From the NCBI GenBank assembly GCA_002737365.1, contig NSIL01000018.1, positions 1 through 51,798 on the forward strand: a DNA stretch of 51,798 bases. The letters are read 5' to 3'. The notes below the pieces were generated by a model that saw nothing but the letters and a program-made list of their open reading frames with translations, did not search any database and was not told the DNA's origin. How positions within the stretch are numbered: position 1 is the stretch's first letter; the number at the start of each line of letters is the position of its first letter. Positions 2-38,620 of this stretch are shown in pieces. Made by a program: the position numbers and the translations under genes. The DNA is from Acidobacterium sp. Lineage in GTDB: Bacteria; Acidobacteriota; Vicinamibacteria; Vicinamibacterales; UBA2999.

Positions 2-1876
2 ACCGTCGACCGCCAGGGCAACTTGTGGATGACCGACGCCGGCAGCGCGCCAGGCAAGGGACACCAGGCCTTCAAGTTCAGTCCTGATGGCAAGATCCTG
101 ATGACACTCGGCAAGGCCGGCGTCAGCGGCTCCGGCCCTGGCCTTTTCGATCAACCCACCGATGTCGTCGTTGCGCCAAACGGCGACCTGTTCATCACTG
201 ACAGTCATCGCAACGGCAAGAACAACCGCGTGATGCACTTCACGAAAGATGGCAAGTTCATCAAGGAATGGGGACGCAAGGGAACCGGCCGCGGTGAACT
301 GAGCGAGCCGCACACCATGGCCATCGACTCGCGCGGGCGTCTGTTCGTGGGCGACCGCGAGAACAACCGCATCGTCATCTACAGCCAGGACGGCCAGGTG
401 TTGGACGAATGGCGCCAGTTCGGCCGGCCGAGCGGCATCGTGATTACGGCGGACGACACGATCTACGTGGCCGACTCCGAGTCGTGGGGCACCGACACCG
501 GCGCGCGTGAGCTGCCGGGGATCAAGAAGGGCATTCGCATCGGCAGCGCAAAAGACGGGCGGGTGACCGCGTTCATCGAAGACCAGGAATCGACCGCCGC
601 GGATCATGCCGGCGCCGAGGGCCTCGGCGTCGATGCGCAGGGCAACGTCTATGGCGGCGTGGTCCGGCGGCGAATGCTGGAGCGGCACGTCCTGATGGCC
701 AACCCGCTGGCGTCGCCCGAATCGGTGGGCTTCTCGGCCGACGGCCTCAAGGCATACCAACAGGCCATGCGCGCGCTAGTCGATGATGGCAAGCTGGCTG
801 GCGTCACCACACTCGTGGCGCGTCACGGCAAGGTGGTCCAGTTCGACGCCTACGGCGTCCAGGACCTCGACACCAAGAAGCCTGTGACCAAAGACACGAT
901 CTTCCGGATTGCCTCGATGACCAAGCCGATCGCCGGCGTCGCCATGATGATGCTGTGGGAACAGGGCAAGTGGACTCTCGACGATCCGGTCGCCAAGCAC
1001 ATCCCCCAATTCGCCAACCTCAAAGTCACGACGCCAAACGGCGAGGCCGCGCAGACGAGGCCCATGACGATGCGGCAGCTGATGAGCCATTCGGCCGGCT
1101 TTGACGTCAGTGCCGGCTACACCAAGGCCAACCTCAGAGAGGCCGACCTGCAGGCGATGATCGACAAGCTGGCCAAGCTACCCCTGGCCGCGCAGCCCGG
1201 CACCGACTGGCGCTACGGCCCGAGCGTCGACATCCAGGGCTACCTCGTCGAGAAGCTCTCGGGCCAGACGCTCGACGTCTTCCTGCGGACGAAGATCTTC
1301 GAGCCGCTCGGCATGACCGATACGGGTTTCTGGGTGGCGCCGTCGAAGGTCGATCGGGTGACGAAGATGTTCACCTACGGTCCTGACAAACGTCTCATGA
1401 CGGCGCCGACCCAGGGTGATCCGACGGTGAAGCCGGCGTTTCTGTCCGGCGGTGGCGGGTTGCTCTCGACGATGGACGACTACCGGCGGTTTGCGCAAAT
1501 GTTGCTCAACGGTGGCGAGGCCAACGGCAAGCGGCTGCTCAAGGTGTCAACCGTCGAGTTGATGCGCACCAACGTGCTGGCCGACGGCGTGACTGTCGAT
1601 CTCTACGGTCCGAATGTCAACATTGGGGGCATCGGCTTCGGCCTCGACTTCGCCGTCATTCTCGATCCGGCCAAGGCGAATACTCCGGAGGGCAAGAACT
1701 CGTTCTACTGGGGCGGCGCGTTCGGCACGTGGTTCTGGATTGATCCGGCCAATGATCTGATCGCGGTCGGCATGATGCAGAACCTGGCCGGCAGCTCACC
1801 GGCTGGCGGCTCGCCGCAGGTGAGGCCGCTGTCGCGCAAGCTGGTGTACCAGGCGCTGGTCGAGCCGAAGAAATGA
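2..1876 (+). CDS. NHL-repeat propeller fused to serine beta-lactamase/esterase-like domain (5' partial)
   Basis: The reading frame is already open at base 2, so the gene begins upstream; the TTG at 23 lies inside an NHL repeat and is not a convincing start. Bases 2-690 encode NHL repeats (DGKILMTLGKAG, NGDLFITDSH, RGRLFVGDREN, DGTIYVAD-like blades) ending in a VVRRRMLERHV segment that normally closes such proteins. From about 700 the frame continues straight into a class C beta-lactamase/esterase domain, with SMTK (SxxK nucleophile and base) at 914-925, a YGPSVD segment near 1214 and WGGAFGTW near 1712. That domain normally has its own signal peptide, which is missing here. An in-frame deletion that joined two exported proteins is the simplest reading. 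A natural two-domain secreted hydrolase is possible. Confidence 0.85.
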   Translation, partial: TVDRQGNLWMTDAGSAPGKGHQAFKFSPDGKILMTLGKAGVSGSGPGLFDQPTDVVVAPNGDLFITDSHRNGKNNRVMHFTKDGKFIKEWGRKGTGRGELSEPHTMAIDSRGRLFVGDRENNRIVIYSQDGQVLDEWRQFGRPSGIVITADDTIYVADSESWGTDTGARELPGIKKGIRIGSAKDGRVTAFIEDQESTAADHAGAEGLGVDAQGNVYGGVVRRRMLERHVLMANPLASPESVGFSADGLKAYQQAMRALVDDGKLAGVTTLVARHGKVVQFDAYGVQDLDTKKPVTKDTIFRIASMTKPIAGVAMMMLWEQGKWTLDDPVAKHIPQFANLKVTTPNGEAAQTRPMTMRQLMSHSAGFDVSAGYTKANLREADLQAMIDKLAKLPLAAQPGTDWRYGPSVDIQGYLVEKLSGQTLDVFLRTKIFEPLGMTDTGFWVAPSKVDRVTKMFTYGPDKRLMTAPTQGDPTVKPAFLSGGGGLLSTMDDYRRFAQMLLNGGEANGKRLLKVSTVELMRTNVLADGVTVDLYGPNVNIGGIGFGLDFAVILDPAKANTPEGKNSFYWGGAFGTWFWIDPANDLIAVGMMQNLAGSSPAGGSPQVRPLSRKLVYQALVEPKK

Positions 1877-2290
1877 CAGCCGCAGATTGAACGCCGATTC
1901 ATCGCCTCACGGCCGCTGACCGCGAGGTAATTGAGGACTTGCGCGTAGTCTGCCGGTGTCGGCGCCGAGCTGGCCTTGACCTGCACGACGACGCTGCCGA
2001 AGCAGACAAAGTCCAGTCGGTAAACTCCGTGGAGTCGCTGCCCCTTGTATTCGACCAAGCACGGTACTTGGGATGTGAAAGGGATGTCCCGAAGTGCGAA
2101 TTCGTGGGCCAACGCCTCGTAGTAGATGGCCTCGAGCAAGCCCCGTCGCCGCACGTGATTGCGTTGGCAGGCCGGGCAGGATCGGCGACCCTGATCCCAG
2201 GCGAGGAGATGGAAGAAATTGCAACACCGTGACGATTCGCCTATGGCAGTGTTCGCCACCGTGGTGAGTCGGCGTGAAATCTGCGGCTGT
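1876..2290. mobile_element. Candidate short element: GxxExxY pseudogene bounded by 13-bp perfect inverted repeats
   Basis: The left end at 1876-1888 reads ACAGCCGCAGATT and the right end at 2278-2290 reads AATCTGCGGCTGT, an exact 13-bp inverted pair 415 bp apart. The only recognisable content is a decayed GxxExxY gene on the minus strand. Further copies of AATCTGCGGCTG lie beside the intact paralogue (6933-6968) and a related unit lies at 38587. No flanking direct repeat (target duplication) was recognised, so mobility is inferred from the repeats and cargo alone. Confidence 0.5.
1900..2160 (-). pseudogene. GxxExxY family (PD-(D/E)XK-like) protein, degenerate copy
   Basis: The translated minus strand shows GLLEAIYYEA (the GxxExxY motif, about 2142 downward), VEYKGQRLHG, RLDFVCFGSVVVQVKA and ADYAQVLNYLAVSG. 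It closely matches the intact paralogue at 6518-6910. The nuclease-like D...ExK motif has become QVK (Glu to Gln). The N-terminal part lies in a different frame. The C-terminal INFG region is replaced by the repeat at 1876-1888. The product is therefore unlikely to be functional. Confidence 0.75.
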
Positions 2291-4336: not shown

Positions 4337-6375
4337 ATGCCCGCCCTCACCCCAGGCACACGCCTCGGTCCCTACGAAATTCTTGCCGCCATCGGCGCCG
4401 GCGGAATGGGCGAAGTCGATCGAGGCCGCGACACGCGCCTCGATCGCATCGTCGTCATCAAAGTGCTGGCGAGCAGCCTGGCCTCGGAGCCGCAGCCGCG
4501 CGAGCGCTTCGAGCGGGAAGCCACGGCCATCTCGTCGCTCACCCCCCCCCAACATCTGCGCGCTCTACGACGTGGGCCGCGAGCGGCCGGCGGGTGACGC
4601 GGGGGATGCGGGTGAGCCGGGCGCCGATGCCTCGCCCATCGACTTCCTGGTGATGGAGCATGTCGAAGGCGAGACGCTGACGGCGCGACTGGCCCGCAGG
4701 TCGTCGCGCGCCACGCGCAATGTGGTGCTGAGCCGCGGCGATCCGCCATCCGATCCCACCGCAGCGACGTCGCCTTCTGCCCCAGGCGCTTCAGTCCCGG
4801 CCTGGTGAGCCTGGCCGATACGAGATGCTCACCGGCCGGCGGCCATTCGAGGGCAAGAACCAGGCGAGCCTGATCGGCGCGATTTTCGATCATTGGCCGC
4901 CACCGGTGACGATGTTCCAGCCGGTGTCGCCGCCCATGCTCGACGAGATCGTGGCGCGTTGCCTGGCCACGGACCCCGACGAGCGCTGGCCGACCGCGCG
5001 CGATTTAGAACGACAGCTCGAGTGGGTGGCGAAGCAGTTGGCCGAAGGTGGCGCCAAGCGCCGCCGGCTGCTGTCACGACGCGGTTTTCGGTGGAGTTGC
5101 CAGAGGGACAGGCCTTCACGCGAACGGGTCGGCACGTGGTCGCGTTGTCGCCGGATGGCACGAGCCTGGTCTACGGCGCGAATCAACAGCTCTATCTGCG
5201 CAAGATGGGCAACCCCTTGGGAGGTTCGTGGATTGGTGATCGCCTGCTGTTGGGCCAAGCCTCGCCGCGCGGCCTCGTCGAGGTGCCGGCCGGCGGCGGG
5301 AGAGCGAAGCTCCTGGTCAGCGTGGATGAGAGCAAGTCGGAGTGGGCGCACGGTCCCCGGCTGATCGCAGGCGGACGGGCCCTGCGGTTCACACTGCGCA
5401 CCGGTTCGCAAGGGTGTGACGACTCGTCGATTGTGATCCACGAACTCGCGACCGGCCGGCGCACGGTGCTGGTCAACGGCGGTACCGACGCCCGGGTGTT
5501 GTCGACTGGCCACCTGGCGTACTTTCGTGAGGCCACCATGCCATTCGACGAGCACCAGATGATGGTGACCGGTAGCCTTCGTGCCCAGTGTAGCGACCAC
5601 CGTCGATCGAGAGCTCGTGTGGCTCAATCGCCAGGGACAACAGGAGCCTACGACTGCGCCTCAGCGAGGTTTTATGACTGGAGGCTCCGGGTTGGCCCTG
5701 TCGCCTGACGGCACCTAGGCGGCAGTCTCGGTCAACGACGGCACCAACGCCTCCGTGGGCTCCGACATCTTGGTGTGGACGATCGCCCAGGGTGCATTGA
5801 CTCGCCTGACGTTTACCGGTGCGGCCACATCACCGGTGTGGACTCCGGACGGCCGCCGCATCTGCTACATGCAGACCGGTGAAGCGTTTTGCCAAAAGGC
5901 TGATGGCAGCGAAAAGGCCCTGTCGCTGTTCATGTTTCCAGGACTGGAATCTCTGGATTCGCTCTCGCCAGACGGCCGCTGGATCGCGTGTCACTCGAAC
6001 GAATCTGAACCTAACGAGGTGTAGGTGCGGCCATTCCCCGAGGTGGACCAGGGGCGGTGGCAAGTGTCGATCGATGGCAGTACGGATCCGCGCTGGGCGA
6101 AGAACGGCCGCGAGTTGGTGTTCTCCCTGGGTGGGAATCCAAATCGGACGTTCTGGTCGAGTGTGGTCCAGCCAGGGACGAGCTTCGTCGCTGGCAAGCC
6201 TGCGCAGATCCCGACGTCAGCGCGGGCGAAGGCCAATGCGAGCGCTGCCTACGACGTTTCACCGGATGGGCGCCTTCTGGTCAGCATGCCCCTCCATACC
6301 GGAATCGTCGCCAACTCGTCGCAGCAGGTGGTGGTGCAGCACTGGTTCGACGAGCTGAAGGCGCGCGTGCCGGCC
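4337..6375 (+). pseudogene. Ser/Thr protein kinase with TolB/WD40-like propeller, multiply disrupted
   Basis: The start MPALTPGTRLGPYEI and the glycine loop IGAGGMGEV match Pkn-type kinases. VVIKVL supplies the ATP-binding Lys. At a nine-C run (4542-4550) the frame shifts, and PNICALYDVGRE continues in another frame up to DFLVMEHVEGETL. The catalytic core (HRD, DFG, activation loop) is absent. After about 4815 the C-lobe resumes (YEMLTGRRPFEGKNQASL, CLATDPDERWPTARDLE). The propeller domain (ALSPDGTSLVYGANQQLY, VWTPDGRRICYM, LSPDGRWIACHSNES) is spread over at least three frames, with in-frame TAG codons at 5716 and 6022. The family C-terminus VVVQHWFDELKARVP ends near 6375. Only the C9 frameshift looks like a possible sequencing error; the core deletion and the stops indicate real decay. 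Confidence 0.9.
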
Positions 6376-6517: not shown

Positions 6518-6910
6518 ATGAACACGCCACAACCCGGAAGCGACGAACGCACCTTTGCCATCATCGGCGCGGCGATGGAGGTCCATCGGATCATGCGCAG
6601 GGGCTTTCTCGAGGCGATCTACTACGAGGCGTCGGCCATCGAGTTCAGGCTTCAGGACATACCGTTTGTGACCCAGGTGCCGTGCTCGGTTGAGTACAAG
6701 GGGCAACGACTCCACGGCTCCGACAGGCTGGATTTCGTCTGCCTCGACACCGTGGTCGTGGAAGTCAAGGCCAGCTTGGCCACGACGCCAGCTGACTACG
6801 CGCAGGTGTTGAACTATCTGGCGGTCAGCGGCCATGAGATCGCGTTGCTGATCAACTTCGGCCGGCCATCGCTGCAGTACCGCCGCTTCGCACTGAGTGA
6901 CTGCGTCTGA
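6518..6910 (+). CDS. GxxExxY family protein (PD-(D/E)XK nuclease-like)
   Basis: The product has 130 residues. The ATG at 6518 gives the normal family start (MNTPQPGSDERTFAIIGAAM); an upstream in-frame extension does not resemble the family. The defining motif GFLEAIY is present, followed by RLDFVCLDTVVVEVKA, which carries the D...ExK pattern of a PD-(D/E)XK fold, and ADYAQVLNYLAVSG and LLINFGRPSLQYRR. Biochemical function is unknown. It is inverted relative to the degenerate copy at 1900-2160, and the two bracket the hydrolase and the kinase relic. Its 3' flank carries several AATCTGCGGCTG repeats. Confidence 0.9.
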   Translation: MNTPQPGSDERTFAIIGAAMEVHRIMRRGFLEAIYYEASAIEFRLQDIPFVTQVPCSVEYKGQRLHGSDRLDFVCLDTVVVEVKASLATTPADYAQVLNYLAVSGHEIALLINFGRPSLQYRRFALSDCV

Positions 6911-6932
6911 GTGTGCGGCTGTCTGGTCTCTG

Positions 6933-6998
6933 AATCTGCGGCTGGCCGAGTATCGAAATCTGCGGCTGTTTGTTCTGAGAATGCTGAATCTGCAGCCG
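6933..6998 (+). repeat. Tandem cluster of AATCTGCGGCTG repeats
   Basis: Copies lie at 6933-6944 and 6957-6968 (exact) and 6987-6998 (AATCTGCAGCCG, diverged), with a partial TGCGGCTGT at 6914. The same 12-mer bounds the GxxExxY pseudogene at 1876 and 2278. Spacing is about 24-30 bp. The last unit runs into the stop codon of the NHL gene on the minus strand. Confidence 0.75.
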
Positions 6999-8963
6999 TC
7001 AGGGCGCTCCCACACGAACCGTGTGGTTGCCACGGTCGGCGACATAAATGCGCCCCGCGGCATCCGCGGCGATGCCCTTCGGATTGAAGAACCGCGCGGC
7101 CGTGCCGACGCCATCCGTCGAGCCGGAACTGGCCGCGCCGCCCACCGTCGTCACCTCGCCTGATGAAGTGATCTGTCGAATCACCTGGTTGTCAGTATCG
7201 GCCACAAACACATTGCCCTGGCGATCGACCGCCACGCCGGAGGGATACTTGAACCGGGCGGCCGCACCGCTGCCGTCCGTCGACCCGGCGCTGCCGGCGG
7301 TCCCCGCCAGGGTGGTGACGACGCCAGCGGAGGTGATCCGGCGAATCGTGTGATTGCCGTGGTCCACCACAAAGACGGTGCCGGTGGTGTCGACGGCGAC
7401 GCCGTAGGGGACGACGAACCGGGCGCTCGTGCCGGTGCCATCCGTGCTGCCGCCCGTACCGGCCAAGCCCGCAAAGGTCGAGACCACGCCGGCCGGCGTG
7501 ATCTTGCGGATGGCGTTGGCGGTCGCATCCGAGACGTAGACATTGCCGTTGGCATCGACGGCGATGCCGAAGGGCTGATCGAATCTGGCGGCGGAGCCGG
7601 TGCCGTCGGCGCTGCCTCGGGAACGCGCCGTCCCGGCCAGTGTCGTCACGACGCCACCGGCGGTGATCTTGCGGACCGTGCTGTTCAGGCTATCGGCGAC
7701 ATACACGTTGCCCGAGGTGTCGACCGCCACGCCGAACGGGGAATAGAAGCGCGCGGCCGATCCGGTGCCATCGGTGCTGCCAAACGACCCAGGTGAACCG
7801 GCCCAGGTGGTGACGGCCCCGTCGGGCGTGATGCGCCGGATGACGTGCGCGGCGCTATCGGCGATGTAGACGACGCCGTCGGCGTCAACCGCCGCCGAGA
7901 AGGGATCTTCGAATCGTGCCGCCGCACCGTGGCCATCGACACTGCTGGTGCGACCGGCCAGTCCTGCGATGGTGGTTACGGCGCCGGCGGTAGTCATAGC
8001 GCGCACGGTGTCGTTGTCGGTATCGGCGACGTAGATGGCGCCGGCGCTCGTGATCGCGACGCCGGATGGATAGTGAAACCGAGCTGCCGAGCCCGTGGCG
8101 TCAGTCGTGCCGGGACTCGACAGCGTGCCGGCGAATGTCGACACCACGCCGCTGGTCGAGATCGAGCGAATGGTGTGTGAGCCGTAGTCGGCCACGGTGA
8201 GCACACCCGCCGCGTCGACGGCAATGCCGCGCGGTTCGCTCAACATCGGGCCCGACAGCGTTCGCGTCGTCACCACGCCATCGGCAGAGATGCGGCGAAT
8301 GGCTCGGTTGCCGGTGTCGGCGACGTAGACGACGCCAGCCGCATCCACGGCAATTCCGTTCGGCCCGCGAAACGACGCCGCCGTGCCCACGCCGTCGGCA
8401 CTGCCGGGTACGTCCGCCTGGCCGGCGAGTGTCGTGACGACGCCAGCGCTGGTGATCTTGCGGATCAGGTGGTTGTCATAGTCGGCCACGTAGAGGGTGC
8501 CGTTGACGTCAATCGCGACGCCGCGCGGTTCGTCGAGGCGTGCCGCCGGACCGGTGCCGTCACTCGTTCCGGCGGTGCCGCCGCCAGCCAGCGTCGTGAC
8601 GACGCCGGCGGAGGTGATTTTCCGGATCGCGTTATTCGAGGCGTCGGCCACATAGACGTTATCCGCATCGTCTACGGCCACGCCAAAGGGTTCGTTGAAG
8701 CGGGCCGCGGCTCCGGTGCCGTCGCCTCGTCCCTCCGTTCCGGGCGTACCGGCGAGCGTCACCACCTCGCCGGATGGCGAGATCTTGCGGACGCTGTTGT
8801 TCAGCGTGTCTGCGACGTAGACATTGCCGGCCCGATCGACCGCCACCCCGCGCGGCGCGTCGAACTGGGCGGCCGCACCGGTGCCATCCTGACTGTTGAC
8901 CACGGTACCCGGCGTGCCCGCGAGCGTCGAGAAAGTGAAGGTGACGGCGGTCAGGATGCGCAT
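6999..8963 (-). CDS. 12-repeat NHL beta-propeller protein
   Basis: The product has 654 residues built almost entirely of about twelve repeats of roughly 55 residues. Each follows ARF-x2-P-x-GVAVD-x-AGNVYVADT-x-N-x2-IRKIT with GVVTTLAG linkers. Two six-bladed propellers would account for the number. The annotated ATG at 8963 starts inside a TLAG linker (MRILTAVTFTFSTLAGTPG). There is no clear signal peptide, although relatives are exported, so the 5' end may be lost or the start misplaced. No enzymatic motif is visible; binding or scaffolding is the likely role. Confidence 0.85.
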   Translation of the reverse strand: MRILTAVTFTFSTLAGTPGTVVNSQDGTGAAAQFDAPRGVAVDRAGNVYVADTLNNSVRKISPSGEVVTLAGTPGTEGRGDGTGAAARFNEPFGVAVDDADNVYVADASNNAIRKITSAGVVTTLAGGGTAGTSDGTGPAARLDEPRGVAIDVNGTLYVADYDNHLIRKITSAGVVTTLAGQADVPGSADGVGTAASFRGPNGIAVDAAGVVYVADTGNRAIRRISADGVVTTRTLSGPMLSEPRGIAVDAAGVLTVADYGSHTIRSISTSGVVSTFAGTLSSPGTTDATGSAARFHYPSGVAITSAGAIYVADTDNDTVRAMTTAGAVTTIAGLAGRTSSVDGHGAAARFEDPFSAAVDADGVVYIADSAAHVIRRITPDGAVTTWAGSPGSFGSTDGTGSAARFYSPFGVAVDTSGNVYVADSLNSTVRKITAGGVVTTLAGTARSRGSADGTGSAARFDQPFGIAVDANGNVYVSDATANAIRKITPAGVVSTFAGLAGTGGSTDGTGTSARFVVPYGVAVDTTGTVFVVDHGNHTIRRITSAGVVTTLAGTAGSAGSTDGSGAAARFKYPSGVAVDRQGNVFVADTDNQVIRQITSSGEVTTVGGAASSGSTDGVGTAARFFNPKGIAADAAGRIYVADRGNHTVRVGAP

Positions 8964-38586: not shown

Positions 38587-38620
38587 ACAGCCGCCGATTA
38601 GACGCAGATTAGACACAGAT
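38587..38620 (+). repeat. Dispersed CGCNGATT repeat unit
   Basis: The block starts ACAGCCGCCGATTAGACGC and continues with AGATTAGACACAGAT. It matches the left end of the GxxExxY element at 1876 with the CGCAGATT/CGCCGATT units in swapped order. No GxxExxY gene is present here, so this is a solo copy. Confidence 0.6.

Follow-up and report, generated by a model that had tools for sequence, protein, structure and literature searches.

GxxExxY genes and the inverted repeat arrays that match them suggest an unrecognised system for the spread or maintenance of DNA repeats

In a 51,798-nt stretch of DNA from an Acidobacterium sp. genome (contig NSIL01000018.1), a 415-bp unit bounded by inverted repeats encloses the remnant of a GxxExxY gene (TIGR04256/PF13366). 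The whole stretch is hereafter called the window, and its genome, 97% complete, is labelled G000. The question raised by this locus is whether such a gene is cargo of a short repeat element, or whether gene and repeats belong together. A first-pass annotation of the window had likened them to repetitive extragenic palindromic (REP) sequences and the REP-associated tyrosine transposases (RAYTs). The analyses reported here suggest an as yet unrecognised system by which DNA repeats are spread or maintained. We consider it probable that GxxExxY proteins and the matching repeats form such a system together; the nuclease would recognise the repeated unit, spread it and keep it uniform.

The 13-bp word that bounds the unit, AATCTGCGGCTGT, forms the perfect inverted pair that had been annotated (1876-1888 on the reverse and 2278-2290 on the forward strand, with zero mismatches). 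With up to two mismatches, the word occurs seven times in the window against 1.16 expected, and none of 100 shuffles reached seven copies, which rules out chance as its source. Both arms extend imperfectly, with one further unit each (ACGCCGATT at 1891-1899 and AGTCGGCGT at 2267-2275), and the enclosed remnant matches only part of the family profile (Table 1), so that both ends of the gene must have been lost. The intact paralogue in the same window passes the curated cut-offs of both families (TIGR04256, 114.2 bits vs 35; PF13366, 104 vs 22) and carries the annotated 3' copies of the word, which are four in number and start at 6910, 6933, 6957 and 6987, with 2, 1, 0 and 2 mismatches, respectively. 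A profile search of the genome with PF13366 and TIGR04256 detected these two genes only. The predicted genome-wide association of the repeat with GxxExxY therefore holds for both genes of this genome, and it is general in relatives, with a word that varies from gene to gene. The supposedly solo unit at 38587 is indeed a copy of the word with one mismatch, but it proved to be part of a three-unit array. The exact 12-mer occurs 30 times in the genome, against 0 for a control pattern; 21 of these 30 copies have another unit within 45 bp, as compared with 32% of random places in the window, and some of the 30 may be chance matches within genes. The genome also contains two gene-free inverted pairs (G000:C11:5117-5171, 55 bp; C25:3736-3785, 50 bp).

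The association was analysed in the genome of the window and in 59 relatives; of these 60 genomes, 34 carry TIGR04256 genes, with up to eight matches each. Loci were scored as bracketed when the upstream flank (600 bp), aligned locally with the reverse-complemented downstream flank, reached a score of at least 18, a threshold set after data inspection; loci with fewer than 150 bp (one of 30 TIGR02436 loci) and the fragment loci L095 and L096 were excluded. Brackets were present in 46 of 61 loci of the relatives, as compared with 4.3% of mismatched flank pairs. Flank matches in the same orientation were detected in 8 of these 61 loci, ruling out direct instead of inverted repeats. PIN genes of the same genomes presented a bracket in 1 of 30 loci (mismatched pairs, 0.2%), which rules out the bracket as a property of any small accessory gene. 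Brackets were likewise observed in 11 of 19 loci from named records, mostly of other phyla (mismatched, 1.5%), in 24 of 40 loci from 16 genomes of mixed phyla, a set overlapping with those 19 (L133 of the latter is L036; mismatched, 1.1%), and in 60 of 89 Verrucomicrobiota loci, 29 of them automatically chosen and 60 lower-scoring and hand-picked among the matches listed (mismatched, 0.9%). These results rule out an artefact of one genus, and the counts for the mixed phyla and the Verrucomicrobiota are the outcome of a prediction recorded in advance, for ATCTGCG-type units, in new genomes. In those two sets the genes were located with a hidden Markov model, and loci with fewer than 120 bp or with a short match were excluded (3 of 43 mixed-phyla loci). 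Among the Verrucomicrobiota, 46 of 96 genomes carry the TIGR04256 family, with up to 12 matches each. A bracket was also sought at a Treponema locus (L346), where none was found. The fatty-acid operon in an 880-kb record of Sphingomonas parapaucimobilis (L345) has, between fabD and fabG, a GxxExxY gene flanked by inverted arms.

The unit differs from gene to gene (CACGGAGA, CACGAAGG, AACGGAGG, CACCGAGG, CGCAGAGG, CACAGAGA, CGCAGATT and others), which rules out a single fixed repeat for the whole family, and the two arms of one gene agree. Most units fit CRCNRA(G/T/A), and the period of the arrays, clear in 53 of 103 arms, is always 8-11 bp (9 bp in 26 of them).

Beyond the genes, gene-free hairpins are scattered by tens to hundreds in many genomes. 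The 13 gene-free copies inspected are mostly inverted doublets, made up of about three units, a short loop and about three inverted units, and three 100-base stretches gave RNA folds of -51 to -53 kcal/mol. Tandem CACGAAG pairs range from 0 in some of the 60 genomes to 419 in one of them, with 0-2 instances of their control pattern in 56 of 60 genomes and a maximum of 12. For another unit, CACRGAG, control counts reached as much as 29+32 in some genomes; the reversed pattern probably fits the arrays too. The median number of G-type pairs was 70 in the 34 genomes with TIGR04256 vs 1 in the 26 without it (p=7e-7; p=5e-5 with one genome per genus). Counts of TIGR02436, a family considered below, also correlate with G-type pairs (rho 0.57, vs 0.62 for TIGR04256); after controlling for TIGR02436 and PIN counts, the partial correlation between G-type pairs and TIGR04256 was 0.38 (p=0.003). 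Mini-elements may also occur in series: at L199 (G059:C62:17151-19100) they are arranged in tandem as composite units of about 165 bp, resembling a cluster of bacterial interspersed mosaic elements (BIMEs), and L200, L201 and L206 contain several CACGAAG mini-elements with inter-unit spacers of 1, 2 and 3 bases, in that order.

The type of repeat follows the protein clade. In a first tree of 76 proteins, ATCTGCG-type units defined one clade (15 of 15 rows; Shimodaira-Hasegawa-like approximate likelihood ratio test, SH-aLRT, 99), and paralogues within one genome (G004, G007) used different dialects, according to clade. A larger tree comprised 187 proteins, leaving out those below 95 aa or with stops, and 71 of its 187 rows had no usable unit label. 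One clade of 80 proteins (SH-aLRT 99) accounts for 39 of 40 genes whose unit ends in T, for 7 of 9 with a final A and for 0 of 67 with a final G. The last base, a label picked after viewing the Verrucomicrobiota arrays, changes 7 times on this tree vs 41.3 times in shuffles, with 3 changes among the 45 labelled rows of its Verrucomicrobiota part. Since the arms are linked to the gene, unlinked copies were tested separately. Of 11 genomes with a T-clade gene, 10 had at least 7 T arrays, vs 3 of the 49 that lack such a gene (p=4e-8); outside the window's genus the counts were 3 of 4 vs 1 of 47 (p=8e-4). Where no T-clade gene was present, the G clade was not predictive of T arrays (1/20 vs 2/29). 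Conversely, 24 of 26 genomes with a G-clade gene presented at least 10 G arrays, vs 10 of 34 without one. Both array thresholds were set after data inspection, and genomes with gene fragments only (G003, G006 and G031) were scored as neither clade. Because the type of gene predicts the unlinked repeats of its genome, "cargo" is too weak a term for it.

These counts bear directly on the possibility that the hairpins are mobilised by some other enzyme, such as a RAYT or a transposase, with GxxExxY as a passenger in the loop of some copies. The existence of genomes with arrays and no detected GxxExxY gene is in line with this explanation. A passenger, however, is not expected to predict repeat type across phyla, whereas the type of unlinked arrays tracks the GxxExxY clade present for the T and G types separately, and we regard the passenger scenario as unlikely.

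The nuclease-like motif that the first-pass annotation had attributed to GxxExxY was borne out by the conservation of the PD-(D/E)XK residues D72, E82 and K84. Throughout the 187 proteins the active-site residues are kept, with D in 183, E/D in 187, K in 184, Q in 175 and Y in 182. The T and G clades are best told apart by the positions that correspond to residues 33, 99 and 120 of the window protein. Ratios of nonsynonymous to synonymous substitution rates (dN/dS) were usable for 8 of 11 pairs, where they lay between 0.08 and 0.19 (of the other three pairs, two were saturated, and L088/L092, at 0.76, has an internal stop), and the intact gene of the window gave 0.16 against the G004 copy, indicating purifying selection. 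In the structural model of the window protein (predicted local distance difference test, pLDDT, 92.8), helices at the N-terminus precede a PD-(D/E)XK-like core. The closest solved fold is SSO0001, which we take to be a Cas4 (Z 10.4 over 101 residues, root-mean-square deviation 3.3; next row, Z 7.7), and a named Cas4 appeared among the fold matches of the model at Z 7.0. The likeness to Cas4/RecB-type nucleases comprises this predicted fold and the D, ExK and QxxxY residues, which we take to constitute the named motif of those enzymes, and the window protein also gave a weak sequence match to Cas4b (E 2e-4). Unlike Cas4, GxxExxY shows no conserved cysteines for an Fe-S cluster among the invariant or nearly invariant columns of 19 proteins, and it presents the additional conserved GxxExxY motif. 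No sequence relatives of GxxExxY were found among solved structures, and the two GxxExxY proteins searched against PHROG returned no match. On plasmids the family is rare: 8 of 72,556 records carry it, each of them classed as non-mobilizable. A search of 50,697 phage records with one query returned no match. Since an excerpt of a report on an algal virus genome lists a GxxExxY protein (PMC12085832), absence of the family from viruses is not claimed.

Orthologous sites differ in the repeats that they carry. In G001, a species of the same genus, the convergent gene pair flanking the 415-bp unit is separated by 4 bp between stop codons and contains no unit. In G006, whose flanking hydrolase shows 89% protein identity to that of the window's genome vs 86% for G001, the unit is present at the orthologous site. 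An empty site in relatives, as anticipated in the first-pass annotation, was hence found while the nearer relative shares the insertion, and the empty site could, less probably, reflect a deletion in G001. Two further genomes, about 90% identical over the approximately 43 kb compared, differ in the repeat content of orthologous spacers: the first spacer has an inverted doublet in one genome and none of that type in the other, and the second has a doublet in one and a single array in the other. Some GxxExxY genes keep their place across families (12 syntenic loci). In three syntenic sets, which include six loci added by eye, agreement between the arms of a locus exceeded agreement between orthologous loci in 208 of 240, 17 of 20 and 5 of 6 comparisons (p=6e-7, 0.003 and 0.06, respectively). 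The arms of a gene thus match each other better than they match orthologous arms, which implies that they change together.

The retention of the gene at the same site in those 12 loci suggests a settled host gene, as do the purifying selection and the rarity of the family on plasmids and in phages. These features would suit an explanation in which the arrays serve the host as terminators or regulatory sites, and GxxExxY, as a regulator or defence nuclease of the host, recognises them as operators or self marks without moving them. We find this very improbable: orthologous sites differ in copies between two genomes that are about 90% identical, and some relatives have 0 copies where others have hundreds.

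The preservation of complementarity between arms while the unit changes could also be attributed to a function as RNA, whereby pairing within the transcript would let RNase III excise or insulate the insert, as in the intervening sequences (IVSs) of 23S rRNA, and mobility would be incidental. According to excerpts of PMC4990558, the terminal inverted repeats of the Coxiella IVS form a stem and tandem heptamers precede its S23 open reading frame (ORF), and the GxxExxY gene between fabD and fabG is also compatible with such a role. In the window, the neighbours of the 415-bp unit are protein-coding genes and not a 23S rRNA gene, and no Rfam family reached its gathering score between positions 1700 and 7200. 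An RNA function leaves unexplained both the tens to hundreds of gene-free copies and the tracking of the protein clade by unlinked copies, and spacers between units are often unpaired in the inspected mini-elements. Overall, we deem it improbable.

Spread and uniformity of the repeat under the action of the nuclease would be consistent with the anatomy of the elements, with the clade specificity of unlinked copies and with the empty site. Under this interpretation, the gene would encode a Cas4-like PD-(D/E)XK nuclease recognising a unit of the form [C/A]-[A/G]-C-N-[A/G]-A-[G/T/A], which would be used in groups of about three and as inverted pairs. The full element consists of an array, the gene and an inverted array, and its dispersed form of an array, a short loop and an inverted array, which can fold into a hairpin. 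The protein may bind or cut these hairpins, probably when single-stranded, as during replication, which would spread them to new intergenic positions and maintain their uniformity. Copies without a gene would be mobilised in trans, and the 415-bp unit of the window would represent a decayed gene-bearing copy.

A precedent for such a system is provided by REPINs, the REP doublets that form hairpins, and their RAYTs, described in excerpts of PMC3116915 and PMC8049555 as repeats that a protein recognises, spreads and keeps uniform. The comparison with REPs drawn by the first-pass annotation finds support in anatomy, genome-wide numbers and clade-specificity. As in those excerpts, the gene is flanked by its own class of repeat, which tracks the protein clade; inverted doublets able to form hairpins are dispersed genome-wide; gene-free copies lie between genes; and more copies occur in genomes that carry the gene. 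The vertical inheritance of RAYTs, not seen on plasmids according to the same excerpts, is paralleled by the few plasmid records of GxxExxY. Terminal inverted repeats and occupied and empty sites are, in turn, features that the elements share with insertion sequences and miniature inverted-repeat transposable elements (MITEs). Unlike RAYTs, GxxExxY proteins are not Y1 HUH tyrosine transposases, as only PF13366 and TIGR04256 gave a match and the model resembles PD-(D/E)XK nucleases. Furthermore, each arm is a series of short tandem units, of 8-11 bp in arms with a clear period, instead of a single REP, and one genome can contain several paralogues that differ in dialect. Given that the protein is not a Y1 transposase, the GxxExxY system would work like REPIN-RAYT without being a member of it, apparently sharing neither protein nor repeat with it.

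Several observations weigh against the interpretation of GxxExxY as the enzyme that spreads these repeats. Flanks scored below the bracket threshold in 15 of 61 loci of the relatives, 16 of 40 of the mixed phyla and 29 of 89 of the Verrucomicrobiota, and in the window's intact gene and its nearest relative the array is on the 3' side only (an upstream arm was looked for at 6518-6910 and none was found). No target-site duplication was seen at the one resolved site. Linkage to the gene accounts for part of the clade correlation, and the 10 genomes rich in G arrays without an intact G-clade gene contain up to 179 of them. Seven of these genomes are at most 92% complete; G000, G003 and G032 are 97-100% complete, and gene loss must therefore be assumed for them. 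Individual misfits include G013, with 40 T arrays and a G-clade gene only, and G017, with a T-clade gene and no T arrays. Within the G type, the bracket matches the dialect of its genome only weakly (rho 0.41, n=22, p 0.03-0.06, 0.03 by permutation), with misfits that include G020, G021, G044 and G057. Regarding the protein, Foldseek returned no match at E<=0.001 (best, 2.5e-3), and no Cas4 match was obtained for a second GxxExxY protein. Lastly, the same layout occurs at unrelated TIGR02436 genes, which have no known nuclease.

The TIGR02436 family, which encodes the four-helix-bundle protein of 23S rRNA IVSs, had been meant as a control. Its genes presented a bracket in 23 of 29 loci (L103-L132; mismatched pairs, 4.7%), with a period of 7 or 14 in 15 of 16 arms with a clear period and 7-bp units such as GTAGCCA, CGGGATT and GCAGGGA. 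TIGR02436 genes and their 7-bp arrays appear to constitute a system parallel to that of GxxExxY. The 23S rRNA IVSs with an S23/IVP (TIGR02436) ORF resemble the GxxExxY elements in having a short ORF between inverted repeats and, in the Coxiella case cited above, heptamers before it; they differ in protein family, in their 7-bp units and in that the window copies lie outside rRNA genes. Excerpts of PMC4692102 describe Nostoc and Xanthomonas heptamers, GGGGA(C/T)T and GGGAATC, as short tandem units dispersed between genes and able to form G-quadruplexes, and these excerpts link them to no gene of their own. With their 7-bp unit, they resemble the TIGR02436 arrays and not those of GxxExxY.

A broader view, quite possible in our estimation but advanced tentatively, is that these genes represent a second, independently evolved bacterial class of repeat makers, in which a Cas4-like nuclease, with neither a transposase nor a polymerase of its own, would read a short code, with a final base set by clade, and propagate hairpin arrays in many phyla. 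TIGR02436 would be a third, parallel version with 7-bp units, which could account for the heptamer repeats known for a long time. Linking gene and repeats would provide a testable function for the common GxxExxY gene and a likely source for the repeats, and it would imply that systems combining a gene with dispersed hairpins need not rely on an HUH transposase. The clade-specific base offers a direct route to testing DNA recognition by a very small nuclease. Should TIGR02436 function in the same way, it would also become possible to test how heptamer repeats and rRNA intervening sequences arose. Full-text literature searches for GxxExxY by name and accessions returned few matches, with passing mention only in those examined. 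No link between this nuclease family and dispersed repeats was found, a weak negative given that few subscription papers or preprints were covered. Among the matches listed, with incomplete coverage, none linked GxxExxY or TIGR02436 to such arrays in general. No account was found of how intergenic arrays such as CTCCGTGTCTCCGTG or TTCGTGTCTTCGTG originate, letters for which the literature was not searched.

Table 1. Repeat arrays and GxxExxY genes in the window, with positions, strands and supporting evidence
Feature	Position	Strand	Evidence
Outer arm of the relic unit: ACAGCCGCAGATT plus second unit ACGCCGATT	1876..1900	-	Word search, sequence inspection
GxxExxY (TIGR04256/PF13366) remnant	1909..2148	-	TIGR04256 72.8 bits over profile positions 18-96 of 116; match confined to positions 18-97
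Inverted partner arm of the relic unit: AGTCGGCGTGAAATCTGCGGCTGT	2267..2290	+	Word search, sequence inspection
Whole 415-bp unit, flanked by two convergent hydrolase genes	1876..2290	.	No unit at the G001 site; unit present in G006
Intact GxxExxY gene, 130 aa from ATG	6518..6910	+	TIGR04256 114.2 bits, PF13366 104; D72, E82-x-K84, Q96xxxY100
Four AATCTGCGGCTG-like units in a 3' array, spaced 23-30 bp	6910..6999	+	Word search
Gene-free three-unit array (ATCTGTG/ATCTGCG/ATCGGCG, 11-bp period), 3' of gene end	38587..38620	-	Word search

Sites related to the features in Table 1 show further variation. In G006, one arm at the site orthologous to 1876-2290 of the window has expanded to 20 copies of a 27-bp repeat (L210, G006:C270, 177-728). 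In G007 (L187), a gene-free inverted array with an 8-bp GATCTGGT-like unit directly follows the orthologous hydrolase, where the window carries its unit. Finally, the region before the intact GxxExxY gene of the window (4825-6358) contains several overlapping reading frames and may correspond to a decaying gene.
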